Source: Cryomorphaceae bacterium (GTDB taxonomy: Bacteria; Bacteroidota; Bacteroidia; Flavobacteriales; ECT2AJA-044). Taken from it: a stretch of DNA of 64,000 bases. The notes beneath the pieces were generated by a model, which saw nothing but the letters and a program-made list of their open reading frames with translations, made no database searches and had not been told where the DNA came from. The position numbers and the translations under genes are program-made. The stretch spans positions 1,922,001 through 1,986,000 of the forward strand of contig CP059070.1 of assembly GCA_017798125.1 (NCBI GenBank). Direction: 5' to 3'. Below, one piece after another: positions 3,167 to 13,521 of the stretch. Each line of letters opens with the position of its first letter. The first letter of the stretch is position 1.

Positions 3167-3216
3167 AGCACTTTTATTGAAGCAGTTTCGACAGGCCAGA
3201 ATACTTTTCCGTTATG

Positions 3217-3224
3217 TATCTTGA
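3217..3224 (+). promoter_or_regulatory. possible -7 promoter box for the S46 peptidase
   Basis: TATCTTGA, a variant of the Bacteroidota -7 box, lies 19 bases before the ATG at 3244. Similar TATCTTnG boxes precede several other genes in this window. Confidence 0.35.
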
Positions 3225-3243
3225 GCCTCCAAATGAACACATT

Positions 3244-5430
3244 ATGAAAAGACTCCTATTGATTTTAATGATCGCCCTCACGGGCGGATGGTCGAGTTCC
3301 TTCGCAAAAGAAGGTATGTGGATACCGCTTCTTCTCGAGCAGCTGAACGAAAAGGAAATGAAAGACCTCGGCATGACCATATCGGCAGAGGATATCTACA
3401 GCGTTAATCAAGGAAGTCTTAAAGATGCGGTGGTCCACTTTGGTGGATTCTGTACAGGAGAAGTCATCAGTGATCAGGGATTAGTATTGACCAATCACCA
3501 CTGCGGGTATGGCGCTATACAAAGCCACACAACGCTGGAAAACAACTACTTGCGAGATGGATTTTGGGCGATGAGTCGCTCGGAGGAATTGCCGAACGAC
3601 GGGTTGTTCGTCCGATTCATCAAGCGTATTGACGACGTCAGCGAACTCGTTCTGTACGAGGTAGATGAGGAGATGTCTCAAGCTGATCGAGCCGCGAAGA
3701 TCAAAGAAAATGTGGAGGCATTGGTCGCGAAAATGGAGGAAGAAACCGGCTTCGATGCTATGATTCGCCCCTTTTACGCGGGCAATCAATACTTCCTTTT
3801 TCTGACGCAGACCTACAATGATGTTCGACTGGTCGGAGCACCACCTTCAAGCATCGGGAAGTACGGTCGAGACACCGACAACTGGATGTGGCCTCGGCAC
3901 ACTGGCGATTTTTCCATGTTCCGAATCTATGCGGACGCCGACAATCAACCTGCTGAGTACGCTGAAACGAATGTTCCATACGCACCGAAGCATCACTTGC
4001 CCGTATCGCTTTCCGGTGTGCAGCCCAATGATTTTACAATGGTTTTTGGTTTTCCGGGATCAACGGATGAGTACATGCCAGCAGCCGAACTGGAAATGAT
4101 GGTCGGCAAATGGGATCCAGCGAAAATTGAATTACGTGAAAAAGCCATCAACATCATGGTTGAAGCCATGAAGGCCGACGAGCAAGTCAATGTGCAATAC
4201 GCAAGTACTCAAGCTGGATTGGCAAATAGCTGGAAGAAGTGGATTGGTATTGGGCAAGGAATCGAATTCACCAAAGCTGTGGAGGCAAAAAGAGAGCGTG
4301 AAGAGCGCTTCCAAGAGTTGGTCAGCAATAATCGTCGATTCGACGCTCGGTATAAGACATTACTTCCGAACTACGAAAAGCTCTTTGGAGAATGGAGCCC
4401 TTATGTGGAAGCTCGCGACCTCTATTTAGAGACGTGTTTTAGAGCAGTAGGAAGCATGTATTTCACGTATCAAATGCGAGGGCTCCCCGAAAAGCTAGAA
4501 GGAGCAGCGGCAGATACGGCTCTAATGGAGGCCTCCGCCCAGGGTTCCGGGCATTTCAAGGATTACAACGAAAGCTTGGAGCGCCGACTATTTGTCGAAA
4601 TGATGCAGCACTACGTAGATCATGTTTCCCCTGAATTGAGAAGCCCATTACTCGACGAATGGTCTATGGATCGTGCCGGGGAACTCTTTGATGCGTCAAA
4701 CTTCACTAGTGCCGAACGCTTTAATTCTTTTACGGCCCTGAGTCCCAAGAAGGCCAAAAAAGCCATCGCAAAAGACGAACTGTTTGGCTTATCAGGCGCT
4801 CTTCTAGACTTTTATCGTGCCAACCTGGCTGGCCCTTACGGATCTATTAGAGCTCAAATAGACAGCATGGATCGTATTTATATGAAGGCACAAATGGAGG
4901 TGTTCCCAAGAGAGCGGTTTTATCCGGACGCCAACAGTACCTTGAGGTTGAGCTATGGAAAGGTGGAGGGCTTTGCTCCTCGAGATGCCGTCACCTACAA
5001 TCACATTACAACCTTAGAGGGTGTAGTCGCTAAATACGTGCCCGGAGATTATGAGTTTGACTTGCCTGCACGTTTACTTGAGTTGGAAGCCTCAAAAGAG
5101 TATGGCGATTACGCGAATGAAGAAGGGGAGTTGCCCGTGTGTTTTATCGCGAGCAATCATACCAGTGGAGGAAACTCGGGATCTCCGGCCATAAATGGAC
5201 GAGGCGAACTTATCGGGCTTAACTTCGATCGCGTATGGGAAGGAACCATGAGCGACTTCAACTTCGATGAGCGGATTTGCCGCAACATCATGGTCGATAT
5301 TCGCTACGTCCTTTTCATTGTAGACAAGTTCGCGGGCGCCAGTCACCTTGTTGATGAAATGGACTTGGTATATGCCCCAGAAGAGGAGGCACCAGATCAA
5401 GACGTTCAATCTGAGGTCATTCTGGATTGA
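3244..5430 (+). CDS. S46 family dipeptidyl-peptidase, probably Asp/Glu-specific DPP11
   Basis: A 728-residue periplasmic serine exopeptidase that removes dipeptides from peptide N-termini, used by asaccharolytic and proteolytic Bacteroidota to feed on protein. A signal peptide occupies about residues 1-21. The catalytic His lies in TNHHCGYG (about 83-90), a conserved NWMWPRHTGDFSMFR stretch follows, and the nucleophile lies in GGNSGSPAIN (Ser645). The residue 18 positions after that Ser is Arg (LNFDR, residue 663). In the characterised Porphyromonas enzymes an Arg there marks DPP11 (acidic P1), while DPP7 carries Gly; the specificity call is therefore inference from that known rule. The start was placed at 3244 because the signal peptide begins there. 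Confidence 0.88.
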   Translation: MKRLLLILMIALTGGWSSSFAKEGMWIPLLLEQLNEKEMKDLGMTISAEDIYSVNQGSLKDAVVHFGGFCTGEVISDQGLVLTNHHCGYGAIQSHTTLENNYLRDGFWAMSRSEELPNDGLFVRFIKRIDDVSELVLYEVDEEMSQADRAAKIKENVEALVAKMEEETGFDAMIRPFYAGNQYFLFLTQTYNDVRLVGAPPSSIGKYGRDTDNWMWPRHTGDFSMFRIYADADNQPAEYAETNVPYAPKHHLPVSLSGVQPNDFTMVFGFPGSTDEYMPAAELEMMVGKWDPAKIELREKAINIMVEAMKADEQVNVQYASTQAGLANSWKKWIGIGQGIEFTKAVEAKREREERFQELVSNNRRFDARYKTLLPNYEKLFGEWSPYVEARDLYLETCFRAVGSMYFTYQMRGLPEKLEGAAADTALMEASAQGSGHFKDYNESLERRLFVEMMQHYVDHVSPELRSPLLDEWSMDRAGELFDASNFTSAERFNSFTALSPKKAKKAIAKDELFGLSGALLDFYRANLAGPYGSIRAQIDSMDRIYMKAQMEVFPRERFYPDANSTLRLSYGKVEGFAPRDAVTYNHITTLEGVVAKYVPGDYEFDLPARLLELEASKEYGDYANEEGELPVCFIASNHTSGGNSGSPAINGRGELIGLNFDRVWEGTMSDFNFDERICRNIMVDIRYVLFIVDKFAGASHLVDEMDLVYAPEEEAPDQDVQSEVILD
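3273..3290 (+). repeat. intragenic hairpin repeat, copy 1 (in S46 peptidase)
   Basis: CGCCC-TCAC-GGGCG-GATG: perfect 5-bp arms, 4-base loop, GATG flank. It lies in the signal peptide coding region and is read as ALTGG, a frame different from most copies. Confidence 0.6.
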
Positions 5431-5456
5431 ATGAATTGTTAAAATCTCATCGATTT

Positions 5457-5486
5457 TTTGAGGAAAACGATAAAGTACTATATTTG
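5457..5486 (+). promoter_or_regulatory. promoter of the histidine operon
   Basis: A TTTG (5457-5460) and a TATATTTG (5479-5486) are separated by 18 bases, matching the Bacteroidota -33/-7 consensus exactly. The leader peptide ATG starts only 6 bases after the -7 box, so the transcript is predicted to begin at or within a few bases of that ATG. Confidence 0.75.
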
Positions 5487-5492
5487 GCCCCT

Positions 5493-5555
5493 ATGAATAT
5501 CTGTGCACATCAGCATCATCATCACATCCATCGCGAGAGCGACCGGAAGTGCTGA
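5493..5555 (+). CDS. hisL: histidine operon leader peptide (attenuator)
   Basis: A 20-codon frame reads MNICAHQHHHHIHRESDRKC and stops with TGA. Six of the residues are His, with four in a row. A ribosome short of charged tRNA-His would stall between 5508 and 5531. The frame lies directly between the his promoter and a strong terminator at 5597-5631, upstream of hisG, which is the arrangement of a translation-coupled his attenuator. A 7-bp pairing between TGCACAT (5504-5510) and ATGTGCA (5559-5565) could form the first hairpin over the His codons. No certain antiterminator helix was identified by eye. Too short for ordinary gene callers. Confidence 0.87.
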   Translation: MNICAHQHHHHIHRESDRKC

Positions 5556-5596
5556 GGTATGTGCAGGGATTACATTAACCTACTCATCATATTCAT

Positions 5597-5631
5597 CACC
5601 CGTCTGGTCGCCAGATGGGTGTTGTTTTTTT
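5597..5631 (+). terminator. his attenuator terminator
   Basis: An 11-bp stem (5597-5607 with 5611-5621, one G-U pair) closes a TCG loop and is followed by TTGTTTTTTT. It lies 41 bases after the leader peptide stop and 45 bases before the hisG ATG, so it would stop transcription before the structural genes when histidine is plentiful. Confidence 0.88.
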
Positions 5632-5658
5632 AAGGCTACTTGAACACTCTTCTGGCGA
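5608..5658 (+). promoter_or_regulatory. alternative helix overlapping the his terminator
   Basis: Bases 5608-5621 (loop plus 3' arm of the terminator) can also pair with 5645-5658 just before hisG: 12 Watson-Crick pairs, one G-U and one mismatch. The downstream partner resembles the terminator 5' arm (CACTCTTCTGG against CACCCGTCTGG). In a read-through transcript this could replace the terminator helix; a role is inference. Confidence 0.4.
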
Positions 5659-5676
5659 TTGGCATTATAAGCGACA

Positions 5677-6534
5677 ATGTCAACACTAAGAATCGCCATT
5701 CAAAAATCAGGACGTCTTTACGAAGAGTCCGTTGACCTGCTTAAGGCGGCAGGTCTTAAGATCGATAACGGTCGTCAACAACTCAAAGCAGAAGTGCGAG
5801 GATTCTCAGCGGAGGTCTTCTTCTTGCGAAATTCTGACATCCCTCAGTACTTGGAGGATGGGGTTGCCGATATCGGAATTGTCGGAAGCAATCTCCTCGA
5901 GGAATACCAGAACCCGCTGGATTCGATTGAATCCTTGGGATTTTCTAAATGCAGGGTCTCATTAGCCGTGCCCAGAGAATCATCTTACCAATCGGTTCAA
6001 GACCTTGCAGGAAAGAGGATCGCTACCAGTTACCCCAATACGCTTCGCCGATTCCTCGAGGATCAGGGCGTAACGGCTGACATTCACAACATTAGCGGGA
6101 GCGTCGAGATTGCGCCAAACATCGGTGTGGCGGACGCTATTTGCGATATCGTAAGCAGTGGGAACACCCTTTTTGTCAACGGCTTACGCGAGACGGAAGT
6201 CATCCTGCGAAGCGAAGCGGTTTTGGTCGCTCGTCCTAACCTTTCTACAGAAATTCAAGATTTACTTGACCAATTCCTGTTTCGGATTCGGTCCGTTCTC
6301 CGCTCGAGACAATACAAGTACATCTTGCTCAATGCACCCAATGGTCAACTGGAACGAATCACGAACATCCTACCGGGTATGAAGAGTCCGACCATCATTC
6401 CCCTCGCGGAAGCGGGATGGAGCTCCGTACACAGTGTCATTGAGGAAGGCCGGTTCTGGCCCATCATCGATGAGCTTCGACAAGCCGGCGCTGAGGGCAT
6501 TCTCATCACTCCAATCGAAAAAATGGCATTATAA
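5677..6534 (+). CDS. hisG: ATP phosphoribosyltransferase, long form
   Basis: First enzyme of histidine synthesis: joins PRPP and ATP to give N1-(5-phosphoribosyl)-ATP. It has 285 residues, the long form, with a C-terminal ACT-like regulatory domain after about residue 215 (RITNILPGMKSPTIIPLAEAGW is typical). It should therefore be inhibited directly by histidine and need no HisZ partner. The N-terminal LRIAIQKSGRLYEESVDLL and the DIGIVGSNLLEEY motif are characteristic. It is the first structural gene after the attenuator; the next gene, hisD, begins one base after its stop codon. Confidence 0.95.
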   Translation: MSTLRIAIQKSGRLYEESVDLLKAAGLKIDNGRQQLKAEVRGFSAEVFFLRNSDIPQYLEDGVADIGIVGSNLLEEYQNPLDSIESLGFSKCRVSLAVPRESSYQSVQDLAGKRIATSYPNTLRRFLEDQGVTADIHNISGSVEIAPNIGVADAICDIVSSGNTLFVNGLRETEVILRSEAVLVARPNLSTEIQDLLDQFLFRIRSVLRSRQYKYILLNAPNGQLERITNILPGMKSPTIIPLAEAGWSSVHSVIEEGRFWPIIDELRQAGAEGILITPIEKMAL

Positions 6535-6535
6535 A

Positions 6536-7819
6536 ATGAAGTGGATAAAAAATACAAGGCCCTCACGGGCCGATGAATTGCTCGCGCGTCCCAGTCTGCA
6601 GCGCGACGAGCTCGATCAGCTCGTCAAGCAAGTCTTTTGGGAAGTAGAGCGCGAGGGAGATGCTGCGGTAGCCCGATATAGTGAGCTCTTTGACGGCTTT
6701 AAAGAGTCCAATTGGAAATTGGATCGAAGCGCCTTAGAAGAACTGGCTGAACGCGTAGCGCCAGAAGTCAAAACGGCTATTGATCGGGCCCGAACCAATA
6801 TTCAAGCCTTTCACGAAGCCCAAGGTTATGACGAATTGGAAGTCGAGACGATGCCGGGAGTGGTTTGCCGGCGTCGCCGTCTGCCGATTTCATCCGTTGG
6901 TCTGTACATTCCGGGAGGAAGTGCTCCATTGTTTAGCACGGTTCTGATGCTTGCGGTTCCCGCGGATATTGCAGGCGTTAAACAGAAAGTACTGGTAACT
7001 CCGCCCAATCGAGCAGGTTCGGTTGCTCCTGAGATTGCGTACTGCGCTTTGAGTAGCGGAATCACGGAAATCTACCTCGTTGGAGGAATTCAGGCGATTG
7101 CCGCTCTTTCCATTGGCACAGATTCTATCCCTAAGGTGGATAAAATCTTTGGCCCGGGTAACGCATACGTTACAGCAGCCAAGCAGTTTGCCCAGAATTA
7201 CGGGGTCGCTATGGACTTGCCCGCCGGGCCATCAGAGGTCATGGTGGTCGGTGATGGAGGCATTGATCCGGCCTACGCCGCTTCTGATTTACTGGCGCAA
7301 GCCGAACACGGGCCTGATAGTCAAGTAGTCTTGCTCAGCACCGATGAGGATTGGATGGAGGCCGTGAACGAAGCAGTCATCCGGCAGAAAGAAACACTAC
7401 CTCGAATCGACATCATAAATCAAAGCTGGGACAAATCCCTTTTCGTGCTCGCACAAAACGAAGAGGAGCTCGTAGAATGGATTAACACGTATGCTCCCGA
7501 ACACTTGATTCTAGCAGGGGCTGCCGAACAGCTAGCTGAACAGCCCATTCGTGCGGGATCTATCTTCCTTGGAGCTTTCACGCCCGAAACGACCGGAGAT
7601 TATGCCTCTGGAACAAACCACACCTTACCGACTGGCCTATGGGCGCGCAACTACAGCGGGGTATCCGTGGATAGCTTTTGTGTGTTTCAGACGCTGCAAC
7701 GAGCTACAAAGGAAGGATTGGCATCTCTTCAGAGCACATTGGTGCAAATGGCTCGCGCAGAGCGCCTGGAAGCGCATGCCCGAGCAGTAGAAGTCCGATT
7801 TAATGCAAAGCAGCCATGA
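6536..7819 (+). CDS. hisD: histidinol dehydrogenase
   Basis: Catalyses the last two steps, histidinol to histidinal to histidine, with NAD and zinc. It has 427 residues, as usual for the family. Visible zinc and catalytic residues include LLAQAEHGPDSQ (Gln, His), NTYAPEHL (Glu, His) and TTGDYASGTNHTLPT (Asp, His). The nucleotide-binding FGPGNAYVTAAKQ is present. The start was placed at 6536, immediately after the hisG stop, because residues before it in the longer frame overlap hisG and are not family-like. The hisC start overlaps its stop as ATGA. Confidence 0.95.
   Translation: MKWIKNTRPSRADELLARPSLQRDELDQLVKQVFWEVEREGDAAVARYSELFDGFKESNWKLDRSALEELAERVAPEVKTAIDRARTNIQAFHEAQGYDELEVETMPGVVCRRRRLPISSVGLYIPGGSAPLFSTVLMLAVPADIAGVKQKVLVTPPNRAGSVAPEIAYCALSSGITEIYLVGGIQAIAALSIGTDSIPKVDKIFGPGNAYVTAAKQFAQNYGVAMDLPAGPSEVMVVGDGGIDPAYAASDLLAQAEHGPDSQVVLLSTDEDWMEAVNEAVIRQKETLPRIDIINQSWDKSLFVLAQNEEELVEWINTYAPEHLILAGAAEQLAEQPIRAGSIFLGAFTPETTGDYASGTNHTLPTGLWARNYSGVSVDSFCVFQTLQRATKEGLASLQSTLVQMARAERLEAHARAVEVRFNAKQP
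6558..6575 (+). repeat. intragenic hairpin repeat, copy 2 (in hisD)
   Basis: GGCCC-TCAC-GGGCC-GATG with perfect arms, near the start of hisD, read as PSRADE. Confidence 0.65.
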
Positions 7820-8850
7820 CTGAAGTGAAACCACTTATAGACGAGTTGATACGTCCTGAACTAAGAGGATTCCGAGGTTATTCTTCGAGTCGAGACGAGG
7901 TTGAGGAGGCCCCGGAGATTCGGCTCGATGCCAATGAGAATCCTTTTCCAAGCGGATACAACCGGTATCCGGACCCACAACCAAGTTCAATAGTTGAAAA
8001 GCTATCTGGTTATTACGGAGTAGAGTCAGATCAACTCCTTGTGACACGCGGGAGCGATGAAGCCATCGACACCATCTTGAGACTGGTGGGTCAACCAGGA
8101 AAAGATGCTGTTCGGATCTTTCCTCCCACCTATGGGATGTACTCTGTTAGCGCTCAAATTCAGGGTCTTGAGGTCATTGAATCGCCATTGGAAATGGACT
8201 TCCGCTGGCCAAATATACGGGGAGAGAAGCCTGCCAAGGTTACGTTCCTTTGTTCTCCTAACAATCCGACGGGAGGGTCTATCCCGCTTGATCGACTGCG
8301 TGAACTATTAGATCAGTCTGAAGGAATCGTTGTTGTGGATGAAGCCTATGCGGAGTTCTCGGACGAGGCTTCGGCCGTTGAATTGATTGCTGAATATCCA
8401 CAGCTGCTGGTTTTGCGCACACTTTCGAAGGCATTCGGATTGGCTGGACTCCGCATTGGGGTTATCCTCGGACAAAAGTTCTGGATAGAAGCGCTGCAGT
8501 CCATTTTAGCCCCATATCCCATACCAACTCCTGTCTTGGAGGCTTTTTTAAGACAATTTGACCCGGATCGAATGAAGGTAGAAGTGATGGAGATCGTCGG
8601 GTTGCGGCAAAGGCTTAAAGAGGAGCTTAGGTCGTTGGACACGGTAGAGGAGGTGCTCCCTTCGGAGGGGAACTTTTTATTGGTTCGATTGCGATGCGAA
8701 GCGGAGCCATTGCGGGGCTTTTTATTGGAGCGTGGAATCTCCATTCGAGACCGTTCTTCCGCCTTCGGATTCCCCGCGGTTCGGATCAGTATTGGAACAC
8801 CCTTAGAGACTCTAAAACTGGTTAATGAATGGAAAAATTACACACCATGA
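7816..8850 (+). CDS. hisC: histidinol-phosphate aminotransferase
   Basis: PLP enzyme converting imidazole-acetol phosphate and glutamate to histidinol phosphate. It has 344 residues, fold type I. The substrate loop LDANENPFPSG, CSPNNPTGG and VVVDEAYAEF (PLP Asp and Tyr) are present, and the Schiff-base Lys is Lys205 in RTLSKAFGLAGLRIG. It overlaps hisD by 4 bases (ATGA) and hisB by 4 bases. Confidence 0.94.
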   Translation: MTEVKPLIDELIRPELRGFRGYSSSRDEVEEAPEIRLDANENPFPSGYNRYPDPQPSSIVEKLSGYYGVESDQLLVTRGSDEAIDTILRLVGQPGKDAVRIFPPTYGMYSVSAQIQGLEVIESPLEMDFRWPNIRGEKPAKVTFLCSPNNPTGGSIPLDRLRELLDQSEGIVVVDEAYAEFSDEASAVELIAEYPQLLVLRTLSKAFGLAGLRIGVILGQKFWIEALQSILAPYPIPTPVLEAFLRQFDPDRMKVEVMEIVGLRQRLKEELRSLDTVEEVLPSEGNFLLVRLRCEAEPLRGFLLERGISIRDRSSAFGFPAVRISIGTPLETLKLVNEWKNYTP

Positions 8851-9950
8851 AGAAGGTGATTTTCTTAGACCGTGACGGTACCTTGATTGACGAACCCATC
8901 GGTACAGAGCAAGTAGATTCGTTCGATGTTTTGAAATTTGAACCAATTGTTTTTGAGTCAATTAGAAGTCTTTTATTGAAGCAAAGCTTTGAGTTAGTCA
9001 TGGTGACCAATCAAGATGGATTGGGGACAGAGACCTTTCCTGAAAAGGACTTCTGGCCTGTGCAGAACTTTGTCGTAAACACCTGTGCAGCTCAGGGTGT
9101 TCCTTTTGCGGATATTCACATTGATCGAACCCGTCCAGAAGATGGGGCTCCTACCCGAAAACCCGGCACGGCATTGCTTCACAGATACATGCAAGGAGAT
9201 TATGATCTAGCCGGGAGTTGGGTGATCGGTGATCGGCTTTCGGACGTTGAGCTTGCAGCTAATTTAGGAGCTCGATCCGCCTTGTACGACCCTCGTAGAA
9301 GGTTTGATTCGAGTAAGGCCGATGTCTATGCAAGGACTTGGCCGGAGTTGGTCAAGAAAATCTTGACTGTGCCGTACCGGATTCCTTTGAAACGCAATAC
9401 ACGAGAGGTTCAACTTCAAGGTAATATTGTCTTTCAGGGAGCGGGTAAGTCGGAAATTAACACGGGATTACCTTTTTACGATCACATGCTCGAGCAAATC
9501 TCCCGCCACGGCGGAATTGATCTGAACCTCACGGTACAAGGGGATTTGGAAGTAGATGAGCACCATACTGTAGAAGACGTGGCCATTGAGCTCGGCAAAG
9601 CACTTGCCGAGGAGTGGAAGTCTTCCGCCGGTCGCCAACGCTATGGCTTTGCATTGCCCATGGACGATGCCGCGGCTGAGGTTCGTTTGGACCTAGGTGG
9701 TCGCTTTTGGTTGGATTGGGAAGTTGCCCTCAAAGGACCTCAGGTAGGTGGTATTGAGGCGGATTTATGGGCGCATTTCTTCCGCTCCTTCGCAGAGAAT
9801 GCGCGCATGAACCTCTATGTGCGCGCTTCGGGCGAAAACGATCACCACATCATTGAATCCGTATTCAAGGCCTTTGCGCGCGCTTTAAAGGCCGCCTTAC
9901 GGCGCGACGAATCACTTGAGTTACCCACCACTAAAGGACAATTCGGATGA
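8847..9950 (+). CDS. hisB: bifunctional histidinol-phosphatase / imidazoleglycerol-phosphate dehydratase
   Basis: A 367-residue fusion. Residues 1 to about 165 form a HAD-type histidinol-phosphate phosphatase (FLDRDGTL with the two Asp, TNQDGLGT, TRKPG). Residues from about 175 form the dehydratase (HMLEQISRHGGIDL, DEHHTVEDVAIELGKAL, SGENDHHIIESVFKAFARAL), whose His-rich motifs bind manganese. The same fusion is known from enteric bacteria and many Bacteroidota. The ATG at 8847 overlaps the hisC stop as ATGA and was chosen over an ATG six codons upstream for that reason. Confidence 0.93.
   Translation: MKKVIFLDRDGTLIDEPIGTEQVDSFDVLKFEPIVFESIRSLLLKQSFELVMVTNQDGLGTETFPEKDFWPVQNFVVNTCAAQGVPFADIHIDRTRPEDGAPTRKPGTALLHRYMQGDYDLAGSWVIGDRLSDVELAANLGARSALYDPRRRFDSSKADVYARTWPELVKKILTVPYRIPLKRNTREVQLQGNIVFQGAGKSEINTGLPFYDHMLEQISRHGGIDLNLTVQGDLEVDEHHTVEDVAIELGKALAEEWKSSAGRQRYGFALPMDDAAAEVRLDLGGRFWLDWEVALKGPQVGGIEADLWAHFFRSFAENARMNLYVRASGENDHHIIESVFKAFARALKAALRRDESLELPTTKGQFG
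9892..9909 (+). repeat. intragenic hairpin repeat, degenerate copy 3 (in hisB)
   Basis: CCGCC-TTAC-GGCGC-GACG: four of five arm pairs and a GACG flank. It is read as ALRRDE near the HisB C-terminus. Confidence 0.4.
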
Positions 9951-10534
9951 AGCGTATAGTACTGTTGGAATACGGGGCGGGCAACACCAGGAGCGTGGGC
10001 TTTGCCTTAGAGCGCTTGGGAGTTGCGTATTCTGTGGAGTCGATCCCAGTGGATGATGCCGCGGGCTATATTTTACCCGGGGTTGGGGCTGCGCCATCGG
10101 CCCGCAGGGCCTTAGAAGAGAATGGTTGGTGGTCTTGGTTGGAGGAAGCCCGCGCCCCTGTTTTGGGCATTTGTCTGGGCTTGCAGCTTATGAGTCGTTC
10201 CAGCGAGGAAGGGAAAGTGGGCGGCTTAGGTCATTTTGAAACGGTTACACGAGCCTTTCAGAAAGCGCCTATAGTACCGCACATGGGGTGGAATTCGGTC
10301 AAATCGAAAGGGTCGCGCCTGCTTGAAGGGGTGCCTGATGAGACGGACTTCTATTTTGTGCACGGTTATCGGCTCGATGATTTCCCAGAATCCACGGGCG
10401 TTACAAGCTATTTCGATGATTTTGCCGTGGTCGCGGAGAAAGACCTTTTTTACGGTGTTCAATTCCACCCAGAGAAAAGCGGCGAGGCCGGTGCTCGGGT
10501 GATTCAAAACTATGTGGATCTATGTTTCGGATAA
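9947..10534 (+). CDS. hisH: imidazole glycerol phosphate synthase, glutaminase subunit
   Basis: Class I glutamine amidotransferase that supplies ammonia to HisF. It has 195 residues. The nucleophile Cys is in PVLGICLGLQLM, and the His-Glu pair is in YGVQFHPEKSG. The oxyanion region LPGVGAAPSA is present. It overlaps hisB by 4 bases and hisA by 13 bases. Confidence 0.94.
   Translation: MKRIVLLEYGAGNTRSVGFALERLGVAYSVESIPVDDAAGYILPGVGAAPSARRALEENGWWSWLEEARAPVLGICLGLQLMSRSSEEGKVGGLGHFETVTRAFQKAPIVPHMGWNSVKSKGSRLLEGVPDETDFYFVHGYRLDDFPESTGVTSYFDDFAVVAEKDLFYGVQFHPEKSGEAGARVIQNYVDLCFG
10095..10111 (-). repeat. intragenic hairpin repeat, copy 4 (in hisH, reverse)
   Basis: The minus strand reads GGCCC-TGC-GGGCC-GATG with perfect arms. 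The gene is on the plus strand and reads it as SARRAL. Confidence 0.6.
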
Positions 10535-11247
10535 TTCCGGCGATTGATTTGATCGAGGGTAGGGGAGTACGCCTTGAGCAGGGTGACTTTTCCAAGGAGA
10601 CGGTGTACGCTTCTAACCCTGTAGAGCAAGCCTTGAAATTCGAACGCATGGGGCTCCGCGATCTTCACTTAGTGGACCTGGATGGAACGCGTTCCAAAAG
10701 GCTCGAACATCAGGGTGTTTTACACTCTGTTTCGCAAGCGACCTCCTTGCATTTGGACTATGGTGGAGGAGTGCGAAATGAGGAGGATATCGAGCTTTTG
10801 CTTTCCCTTGGCGCGTCAAAAGTGGTGCTTGGAAGTGCCGCTGCCCTGCGGCCAGACTGGTTTGTAAAAACACTTCAATTGATAGGATCTAAAAATCTGG
10901 TTTTCAGTTGTGATATACGAAACAAAAAACTCCAGCTGTCAGGTTGGCAGTCGTCTTTTTCGGGTGATTTTTGGTCTCTTTTAGATCAATTCTCAAAGGC
11001 CGGGCTCCAAGAGGTTCAGTGCACCGCCATCGACCGAGATGGTATGTTGAAAGGACCGGATTTTGAGCTTTATGAGGAAGCGATTCGACGTTTTCCACAA
11101 CTGAATTGGATCGCCTCAGGAGGAGTTTCGCGCCGTCAGGATTTGATCGATTTGGAGGCGCTGGGATGTTCCGGAGCCATCGTTGGGAAGGCATTCTATG
11201 AAGGACGAATTACCGAAGCAGATTTAAAGCTCTGGACCCATGCTTAA
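10522..11247 (+). CDS. hisA: phosphoribosylformimino-5-aminoimidazole carboxamide ribotide isomerase
   Basis: A 241-residue (beta/alpha)8 barrel that isomerises ProFAR to PRFAR. The N-terminal [18 protein letters not shown] holds the catalytic Asp, [10 protein letters not shown] and [12 protein letters not shown] hold phosphate-binding glycines, and the second catalytic Asp is in [15 protein letters not shown]. The start ATG lies inside the last codons of hisH (13-base overlap), and hisF overlaps its stop by 8 bases, so translation is probably coupled. Confidence 0.94.
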
Positions 11248-11992
11248 AAAACGAATCATTCCTTGCTTGGACATCAAAAACGGGCGAACAGTCAAAGGGG
11301 TAAATTTCAAAGGGCTTCGAGATGCGGGCGACCCTGTTCAACTCGCGGCGAAGTACAACGAAGCTGGAGCGGATGAATTGATCTTTCTGGATATCTCCGC
11401 CAGTGAGGAACGCCGGGAAACCCAGCAGCAGTGGGTCGAACAGGTCGCTCGTGAGGTGGCCATACCCTTTGCCGTCGGCGGCGGAATCAGTAGTGTTGAT
11501 GAAGCCTACGCGCTTTTGCGCTGTGGGGCAGACAAGATTTGCGTTAACTCGGCCGCACTTGCTCGACCACAACTCATCGCCGAGCTGGCTGATGCTTTTG
11601 GTCAGCAATGCGTTGTCTTGGCGATTGATGCTACCGTAGAAGAAGGAACCTGGCGCGTCTTCAGCCACGGAGGTCAGCGCAGAACAGACCGCGAACTCAT
11701 AGAATGGGCCGTTGAAGCTGAAACTATGGGAGCTGGCGAGATTCTGTTCACCAGTATGGACCACGACGGCACCAAGGACGGTTTTGCCCTTGATGGGCTC
11801 CGTGCCCTTCGTGCGGCCACTTCAATCCCCATCATTGCTTCAGGTGGCGCGGGGGAAATAGTCCACTTTACTGAGGTTTTCAAAGAAACCGATGTAGAGG
11901 CCGCTTTGGCCGCCAGCGTATTTCACTTTGGCGAGATCGAGATTATTGAATTAAAACAGGCCCTACGGGCCGATGAAATCCCCGTGCGATAA
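11240..11992 (+). CDS. hisF: imidazole glycerol phosphate synthase, cyclase subunit
   Basis: A 250-residue barrel partner of HisH that makes imidazole glycerol phosphate and [25 protein letters not shown] with catalytic Asp, [23 protein letters not shown], and the second catalytic Asp in [13 protein letters not shown] are all family-specific. The C-terminus [14 protein letters not shown] contains a hairpin repeat copy where family members usually vary. The stop and the hisIE start share one base (TAATG). Confidence 0.95.
11959..11975 (+). repeat. intragenic hairpin repeat, copy 5 (in hisF)
   Basis: GGCCC-TAC-GGGCC-GATG, the exact sequence also found at 19741 and 59308. Read as ALRADE at the HisF C-terminus. 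Confidence 0.7.
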
Positions 11993-12588
11993 TGGATCAA
12001 AAGAAGATAGATTGGCAAAAGATGGACGGGTTGATCCCGGCTGTTGTCCAGGATCAAAAGACAAAATCAGTTCTGATGTTGGGGTATATGAGCCCCGAAT
12101 CGTGGTCTCAAACGCTTGAAGACGGTTTTGTGACTTTTTGGAGTAGATCCAAGCAACGTCTTTGGAAAAAGGGAGAAACGAGCGGAAACACGCTAAAACT
12201 GTCCGACTGGAAGCTGGATTGCGATGGGGATACACTCCTACTGTCTGTAGATCCTGCAGGTCCGGTGTGCCATACGGGCGACACCACCTGTTTTGGCAAC
12301 GATCATGGACGATTCCTAGATGCATTGGAATCGCTTGTGCACCAGCGCGTTGCGGATCGTCCCAAAGGCAGTTATACGACGAATTTATTGGAGGCTGGAC
12401 TCCAGAAAATTGGGCAAAAGGTTGGAGAAGAAGGTTTGGAAACCGCTCTGGAGGCAGCCTCTGGATCAGATGAGCGCTTGATTAGCGAATCCGCGGACCT
12501 CGTATATCACCTAATCGTTTTACTCCAAGCTCGTGGATTAAGTATGAGCGAGGTAGAGCAAGAGTTGGAGCGCCGTCACCGTTCGTGA
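11992..12588 (+). CDS. hisIE: bifunctional phosphoribosyl-AMP cyclohydrolase / phosphoribosyl-ATP pyrophosphatase
   Basis: A 198-residue fusion for steps two and three of the pathway. The HisI part (about 1-105) shows [30 protein letters not shown] and metal ligands in DCDGDTLLL and [11 protein letters not shown]. The HisE part (about 110-198) shows [24 protein letters not shown] and [13 protein letters not shown]. It is the last gene of the operon and ends directly against the convergent oxyR gene, without a visible terminator. Confidence 0.94.
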
Positions 12589-13521
12589 CTACTTCCAGTT
12601 TACGCGAATGTAGGAACGTTTCTTTTGGACCACATCGGGAACACTTTCCAAGAAATCATCGCGCATGGCCGCGAGAAGGTGCTCTTTAGTGAACCCTTGA
12701 TGGGTTACAAAACTCACCTCCCGAACGGGCTGCGGGTCGTTGAACGGAATGACATGAGCGTTTTCTGATCCGCCACGAGCCGATAACTCCGGAATAAGAG
12801 TGAATCCTCCGTTCTGATCGACAAGCTGCTTTAGCGTTTCGATAGAACCGCTTTCGTACATAAAGCCCTGATGGTCAATTTGCTCGTTCTTTGGTCGGCA
12901 AATATTCAAGACCTGAGAGCGAAAACAATGACCCTGATTCAAAATCCACAGGTCTTCATCCGGTAGCTTCTCGGGGTCAATGCTCTTTTGTCCGTAGAGT
13001 GGATGCACGTCCGAGGCATAGATCATGAAGGATTCATTGAAGAGAGGGATCTCTCGAATTTCCGATTCCTCCAAGGGGGTTACCAATAAGCCAATATCCA
13101 ATTGATCTCCCTTCAAACGCTCAATGATTTCGAGCGTTTGCAGTTCCTCTACAACTAAACGGACCTCAGGGTGTCGCTCGGTGAAGAGCTTGAGGAAGCG
13201 CGGCATCACATAGGGGGCTAGGGTAGGGATTACCCCAATCCGAAATTCCCCATCCATGGTTTCCTTGTCCGACTTAATAATTTCTTCAAGTTGGTGGAAC
13301 TCGCGAAGTACCTGTCTGGCTTTCTTGACTACGGATGTCCCAAAGGGCGTCGGCTCAATGGGCTTCTTGGTGCGATCAAAGAGCAACATGCTCCATTCGT
13401 CTTCCAATTTCTTGACCTGCATGGTCAGAGTAGGCTGGGTCACGTGGCAAGATTCCGCTGCACGAACAAAGCTTCGGTGCGTATCCAAGGCCACGATGTA
13501 CTCGAGTTGCTGAATGGTCAT
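12589..13521 (-). CDS. oxyR: hydrogen peroxide sensor and transcription regulator, LysR family
   Basis: A 310-residue LysR regulator. The N-terminal helix-turn-helix covers about residues 1-60 (FVRAAESCHVTQPTLTMQVKKLE). The regulatory domain carries Cys199 and Cys208 in NQGHCFRSQVLNIC, the same numbering and spacing as the redox-active pair of Escherichia coli OxyR, and the T/GHCFR context is typical. It should sense peroxide by disulfide formation and activate catalase and peroxidase genes. The gene starts one base after the stop of an outer-membrane barrel gene, so the two are probably co-transcribed. Confidence 0.9.
   Translation of the reverse strand: MTIQQLEYIVALDTHRSFVRAAESCHVTQPTLTMQVKKLEDEWSMLLFDRTKKPIEPTPFGTSVVKKARQVLREFHQLEEIIKSDKETMDGEFRIGVIPTLAPYVMPRFLKLFTERHPEVRLVVEELQTLEIIERLKGDQLDIGLLVTPLEESEIREIPLFNESFMIYASDVHPLYGQKSIDPEKLPDEDLWILNQGHCFRSQVLNICRPKNEQIDHQGFMYESGSIETLKQLVDQNGGFTLIPELSARGGSENAHVIPFNDPQPVREVSFVTHQGFTKEHLLAAMRDDFLESVPDVVQKKRSYIRVNWK

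Follow-up and report, generated by a model that had tools for sequence, protein, structure and literature searches.

The 64,000-nucleotide stretch of the Cryomorphaceae bacterium genome analysed here (the window) carries, ahead of the histidine biosynthesis genes, an element that is very probably a classical ribosome-mediated transcription attenuator of the his operon. Attenuation is supported by the position of the element, its His codons, its terminator and a competing antiterminator, and also by its wide conservation and its covariation. Ribosome-mediated attenuation is the textbook case of coupled transcription and translation control, with an experimental basis that comes mostly from enteric bacteria. 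In the present case the elements, their alternative folds, their conservation and their covariation are drawn from sequence.

The his Locus and the Elements of the Probable Attenuator

By sequence inspection, the attenuator elements follow one another in the correct order, all within at most 220 nt, ahead of a complete his operon. The features of the locus are the following:

3214-5430, plus strand: Dpp7-like peptidase gene, the upstream neighbour (ORF list)
5457-5460, plus strand: TTTG, -33 element of the putative promoter, separated by 18 nt from the -7 box (consensus for Bacteroidota as in PMC7366714)
5479-5486, plus strand: TATATTTG, -7 element of the putative promoter (TAnnTTTG consensus; sequence)
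5493-5555, plus strand: leader peptide ORF MNICAHQHHHHIHRESDRKC, 20 residues, six His (ATG at 5493, TGA at 5553-5555)
5499-5571, plus strand: leader hairpin over the His codons (minimum free energy fold), including 5504-5510 paired with 5559-5565
5539-5547, plus strand: antiterminator 5´ strand GCGACCGGA, in the last leader codons (helix, nascent-RNA fold, covariation)
5597-5631, plus strand: intrinsic terminator, stem 5597-5607 with 5611-5621, T-run TTGTTTTTTT at 5622-5631
5603-5611, plus strand: antiterminator 3´ strand TCTGGTCGC / UCUGGUCGC, overlapping the 5´ arm and loop of the terminator and reaching the first 3´-arm base
5677-12588, plus strand: regulated operon hisG-hisD-hisC-hisB-hisH-hisA-hisF-hisIE (NCBIfam matches; ORFs overlapping or near-adjacent)
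Gene starts, plus strand (NCBIfam): hisG 5677, hisD 6530, hisC 7816, hisB 8829 (bifunctional), hisH 9947, hisA 10522, hisF 11240; hisIE spans 11992-12588

The genes of the operon make histidine, the amino acid of the leader codon run. An OxyR-like LysR-family regulator gene (12589-13521, minus strand) lies tail to tail with the operon end. The original prediction, made from the letters of this stretch, had named a promoter of the form TTTG-N18-TATATTTG, a 20-residue leader with six His, an 11-bp terminator with T-run, the full hisGDCBHAF(IE) operon and a hairpin pairing 5504-5510 with 5559-5565. Each of them is found: the two promoter boxes, the ORF and the terminator at the coordinates above, the operon as eight genes named by NCBIfam, and the hairpin pairing as a perfect 7-bp match.

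The His codons of the leader lie at 5508-5510, 5514-5525 and 5529-5531. On both strands of the 64-kb window, stretches of eight codons with at least five His codons occur only in the leader and in one other place, and the leader is the sole short ORF with HHHH. The operon is thus preceded, as attenuators of this class require, by a short ORF with clustered His codons, an arrangement that is rare by chance. The leader RNA folds better than 200 of 200 shuffles (z = -3.85), and in its fold the leader hairpin, as long as no ribosome translates the leader, ties up some of the antiterminator strand.

Between the leader ORF and the first structural gene lies the intrinsic terminator that such an attenuator needs. 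Its stem has 11 pairs, including one G-U, with the loop TCG (-18.8 kcal/mol), and it is the longest terminator-like stem on either strand within 5300-12800, a region in which terminator-like matches show no overall excess (8 against 8.6 in shuffles).

Putative Promoter and Predicted Transcript Start

In Flavobacterium psychrophilum, the TAnnTTTG box is placed at -12 to -5 (PMC9723704). The same spacing applied to the window predicts, from promoter position alone, a transcription start at about 5491 and therefore a 5´ UTR of about 2 nt before the leader ATG. The gap between box and ATG is 6 nt in the window and 14-38 nt in most relatives of the order; gaps of 4-9 nt are found at 11 of 95 loci in the order and at 21 of 66 elsewhere in the class. 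Leaderless mRNAs are given as 5.5% in F. psychrophilum (PMC9723704), and about 3.7% of the 5´ UTRs of Bacteroides thetaiotaomicron are shorter than 10 nt. Leaderless mRNAs make up a few per cent in the phylum, and the predicted 2-nt 5´ UTR would be unusual there.

The Antiterminator and the Alternative Folds

The element competing with the terminator is a 9-bp antiterminator helix between 5539-5547 and 5603-5611, which was absent from the original prediction. The attenuator had been called complete; all the elements then named are present, and the word is justified only once this helix is added to them. In the window by itself the antiterminator is moderately improbable, an equally good helix being formed by 35 of 2000 shuffled leaders (p about 0.02).

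The effect of translation on these folds was simulated by removing the ribosome-covered RNA and folding the remainder, assuming the footprint generally given for the E. coli ribosome. When the A site is placed at His6, His8, His9, His10 or His11, the nascent RNA to 5612 forms nine of nine antiterminator pairs (-26.7 kcal/mol). When the ribosome is at the stop codon, all 11 terminator pairs form; a transcript free of ribosomes folds into the leader hairpin plus the terminator. The simulated positions reproduce, in this model, the three states of classical attenuation: computationally, the antiterminator excludes the terminator, is freed at the His codons and is masked at the stop codon. Once the 3´ arm of the terminator is present, the two competing folds differ very little in energy, so the outcome would depend on kinetics.

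Proposed Mechanism

Transcription would start at about 5491, and a ribosome would initiate the His-rich leader nearly at the 5´ end of the transcript. When charged His-tRNA is plentiful, the ribosome would reach the stop codon (5553-5555) and cover 5539-5547, the terminator (5597-5621) would form and RNA polymerase would halt at the T-run. With charged His-tRNA in short supply, the ribosome would wait at His6-His11, leaving 5539-5547 free to pair with the emerging 5603-5611; the paired antiterminator would prevent the terminator, and hisGDCBHAF-IE would be transcribed. If the leader were not translated, the hairpin at 5499-5571 would keep the antiterminator strand partly occupied, leaving the terminator as the default fold. 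We infer from the sequence the start site, the translation of the leader and a histidine response in which read-through follows charged His-tRNA.

A more far-reaching proposal, possible but rather doubtful, has two parts. The leader would be translated from a near-leaderless transcript (5´ UTR of about 2 nt) in a phylum largely without Shine-Dalgarno sequences, so that histidine would be sensed via initiation at a 5´-terminal AUG. In addition, the element would belong to a class-wide, uncatalogued family of Bacteroidia his attenuators, some families of the class having a read-out other than an intrinsic terminator.

Conservation and Covariation in Relatives

The search for HisG took in 60 relatives, 296 genomes from the order and 295 from the class, and regions upstream of hisG were retrieved. 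A His-rich ORF with a terminator precedes hisG at 103 of the 111 loci of the order. A strict His-cluster ORF is found at 97 of 111 loci in the order and at 83 of 101 in other orders within the class; the reverse strands of these regions gave 2 and 1. The counts are approximate: leaders were picked automatically, and the choice was wrong for at least one relative (L095), whose true leader can be seen. Beyond the His run there is free variation among the leader peptides, as in MFINQLHHHHFHYCSQAMC, MKPNFLTVHHYHHHLC and MHHHHHFHVQAGR. In most relatives the antiterminator strand runs from 0-15 nt past the final His codon to the vicinity of the stop codon. Its sequence is family-specific: pairs such as CTCAAGCG with CGTTTGAG, AGACGG with CCGTCT, CACCACGGC with GCTGTGGTG and GCGGTAGGCT with GGCTTACCGC take the place of GCGACCGGA with TCTGGTCGC in the window. 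Among the relatives examined, L019, L021, L023 and L027 gave no convincing antiterminator helix.

The antiterminator shifts from family to family, and one alignment for all of them would place it wrongly. For this reason a swap test took the place of a covariance model. In 19 divergent representatives, leaders pair with their own terminator at a mean of -14.7 kcal/mol and with those of the others at -10.6 kcal/mol, a difference equalled in 0 of 20,000 permutations; for the window terminator, the window leader is the best of the 19. Within the CTCARRCG × CGTYTGAG type, a terminator C at the variable base goes with a leader G, never with A alone, while a terminator T goes with a leader A (31) or G (11), an association with a Fisher p of 4e-6 when relatedness is ignored. 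A search for compensating changes in related genomes had been suggested as a check, and both the swap test and this type reveal them in the antiterminator. This covariation, the antiterminator itself and the class-wide conservation are part of the in silico support for the his attenuator first read from the letters.

The same data bear on the possibility that the hairpin and T-run are simply the terminator of the Dpp7-like peptidase gene, the his promoter lying further downstream and the His-rich ORF being incidental. That gene ends at 5430 on the same strand, 167 nt before the hairpin, with no other terminator-like site between them. However, the promoter match and the His-rich ORF sit in this very interval, ORF and terminator recur jointly before hisG in most of the class, and covariation of an antiterminator with the terminator would be needless for a plain terminator. 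This explanation is highly improbable.

Very little credence can likewise be given to a mainly translational leader, in which reinitiation would feed hisG or stalling would alter access to the hisG start, termination being secondary. Reinitiation has been proposed as a way in which leader genes increase translation of what lies downstream, 11-14 bp being the favoured distance in Bacteroidetes (PMC4833913), and some families of the class have a His leader for which a terminator was not found. In the window, however, the leader stop lies 121 nt before hisG, far from the proposed optimum, and a strong terminator stands between them. Transcription attenuation remains the preferred reading of the window element.

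Variants of the arrangement were seen within the class. In the f16 genomes (about 600 kb; L029, L030, L031, L131 and L132), a hairpin with a T-rich tail lies just before hisG with no His-rich leader ORF, apparently a decayed attenuator. In another family of the class (f55; L216, L220, L222, L223 and L224), His-rich leaders such as MELYKQHHLHLHHHRPVMNR are present and an intrinsic terminator was not found; the stretch ATAATGTATGTTTCTACGCGAAATAACA after the stop codon is common to four of the five loci, and the read-out may differ there. At L160, L191, L203, L210 and L211 (f17 and f30), leaders end in His-His-Ser-Ser and a CCTCC...GGAGG-type palindrome spans the stop codon, without a clear terminator after it. 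Finally, the one other genome of the window genome's genus among those searched (G001, 97% complete) gave no hisG match, and histidine synthesis seems to vary within the genus.

A Second Likely Attenuator in the Same Genome

Elsewhere in the window genome (L235, G000:C1 near 2,050,700, minus strand), a short Trp leader ORF, MNRTISNNWWWTSFNPEEKR, and a terminator hairpin with T-run, AAAGCCTGCTTCTCGCAGGCTTTTTTT, lie ahead of trpE. This is likely a second attenuator, so attenuation would not be confined to his. Searches for ilvD and prephenate dehydratase gave no match in this genome. No Thr-rich leader was found in the stretch around the homoserine dehydrogenase match, which may stop short of the gene start.

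Implications

Covarying his attenuators across Bacteroidia would imply that transcription and translation are coupled tightly enough for attenuation in a phylum with unusual translation initiation. For the window genome, the finding marks a predicted functional gene of 20 codons that is likely skipped by gene finders. The window element probably turns the his genes on when histidine is short; it is of a well-known type of switch, common in this bacterial group yet hardly catalogued there. Databases could gain a candidate RNA family from the his attenuators of Bacteroidia, which would also offer a ready-made, predicted histidine-responsive switch.

Comparison with Known Systems

The Rfam His_leader family (RF00514), the hisL attenuator of Escherichia coli and Salmonella, gave no match to the element with its covariance model, neither at the gathering score nor up to E = 10. 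The T-box covariance model gave none in strict and lax searches of Rfam, nor did any other relevant Rfam family, which bears out the earlier remark that the leader is easily missed. The hisL attenuator shares with the window element a short ORF with a His run, mutually exclusive antiterminator and terminator, a T-run, and the position before hisG and the his operon. They differ in that the Rfam models detect no similarity, in promoter type, and in the layout of the window element: its predicted 5´ UTR is about 2 nt, and its leader is shorter and contains a single protector hairpin, antiterminator and terminator. Given that no Rfam family of any kind matches, and that the His run of the peptide is conserved while the remainder of the leader differs freely from one family to the next, a riboswitch-like or T-box-like RNA sensing histidine or uncharged tRNA directly, without leader translation, has a practically negligible chance of being correct, even though T-boxes control his genes in other phyla by the account in PMC9413887.

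Attenuation of amino-acid operons in Bacteroidota has some precedent. In published work on his genes throughout the Bacteroidota superphylum, the main text refers to attenuation only once, with regard to enterobacteria. Ribosome-mediated attenuators of bacterial amino-acid operons were reportedly predicted by comparative genomics by Lopatovskaya, Seliverstov and Lyubetsky (2010, in Mol Biol 44:128, cited in PMC4833913), predictions that in outline resemble the present one in both mechanism and approach. The closest case is F. psychrophilum, whose 2021 transcriptome gave strong clues of leader-peptide attenuation upstream of amino-acid biosynthesis operons, and whose hisG has a structured 5´ element that is described as conserved in other Flavobacteriaceae and not in Rfam (PMC9723704). 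Both elements precede the same gene in the same bacterial order, and attenuation of amino-acid operons was inferred there as well. For hisG, however, the main text of that report describes neither a peptide nor an antiterminator nor covariation, and the conservation it names is within Flavobacteriaceae (PMC9723704). The window comes from a different family of the order, and its element extends across the class. The mechanism is therefore a textbook one, and published work already points to its occurrence in the order; what the present analysis adds is the antiterminator, the covariation it shows and the spread of the element across the class.
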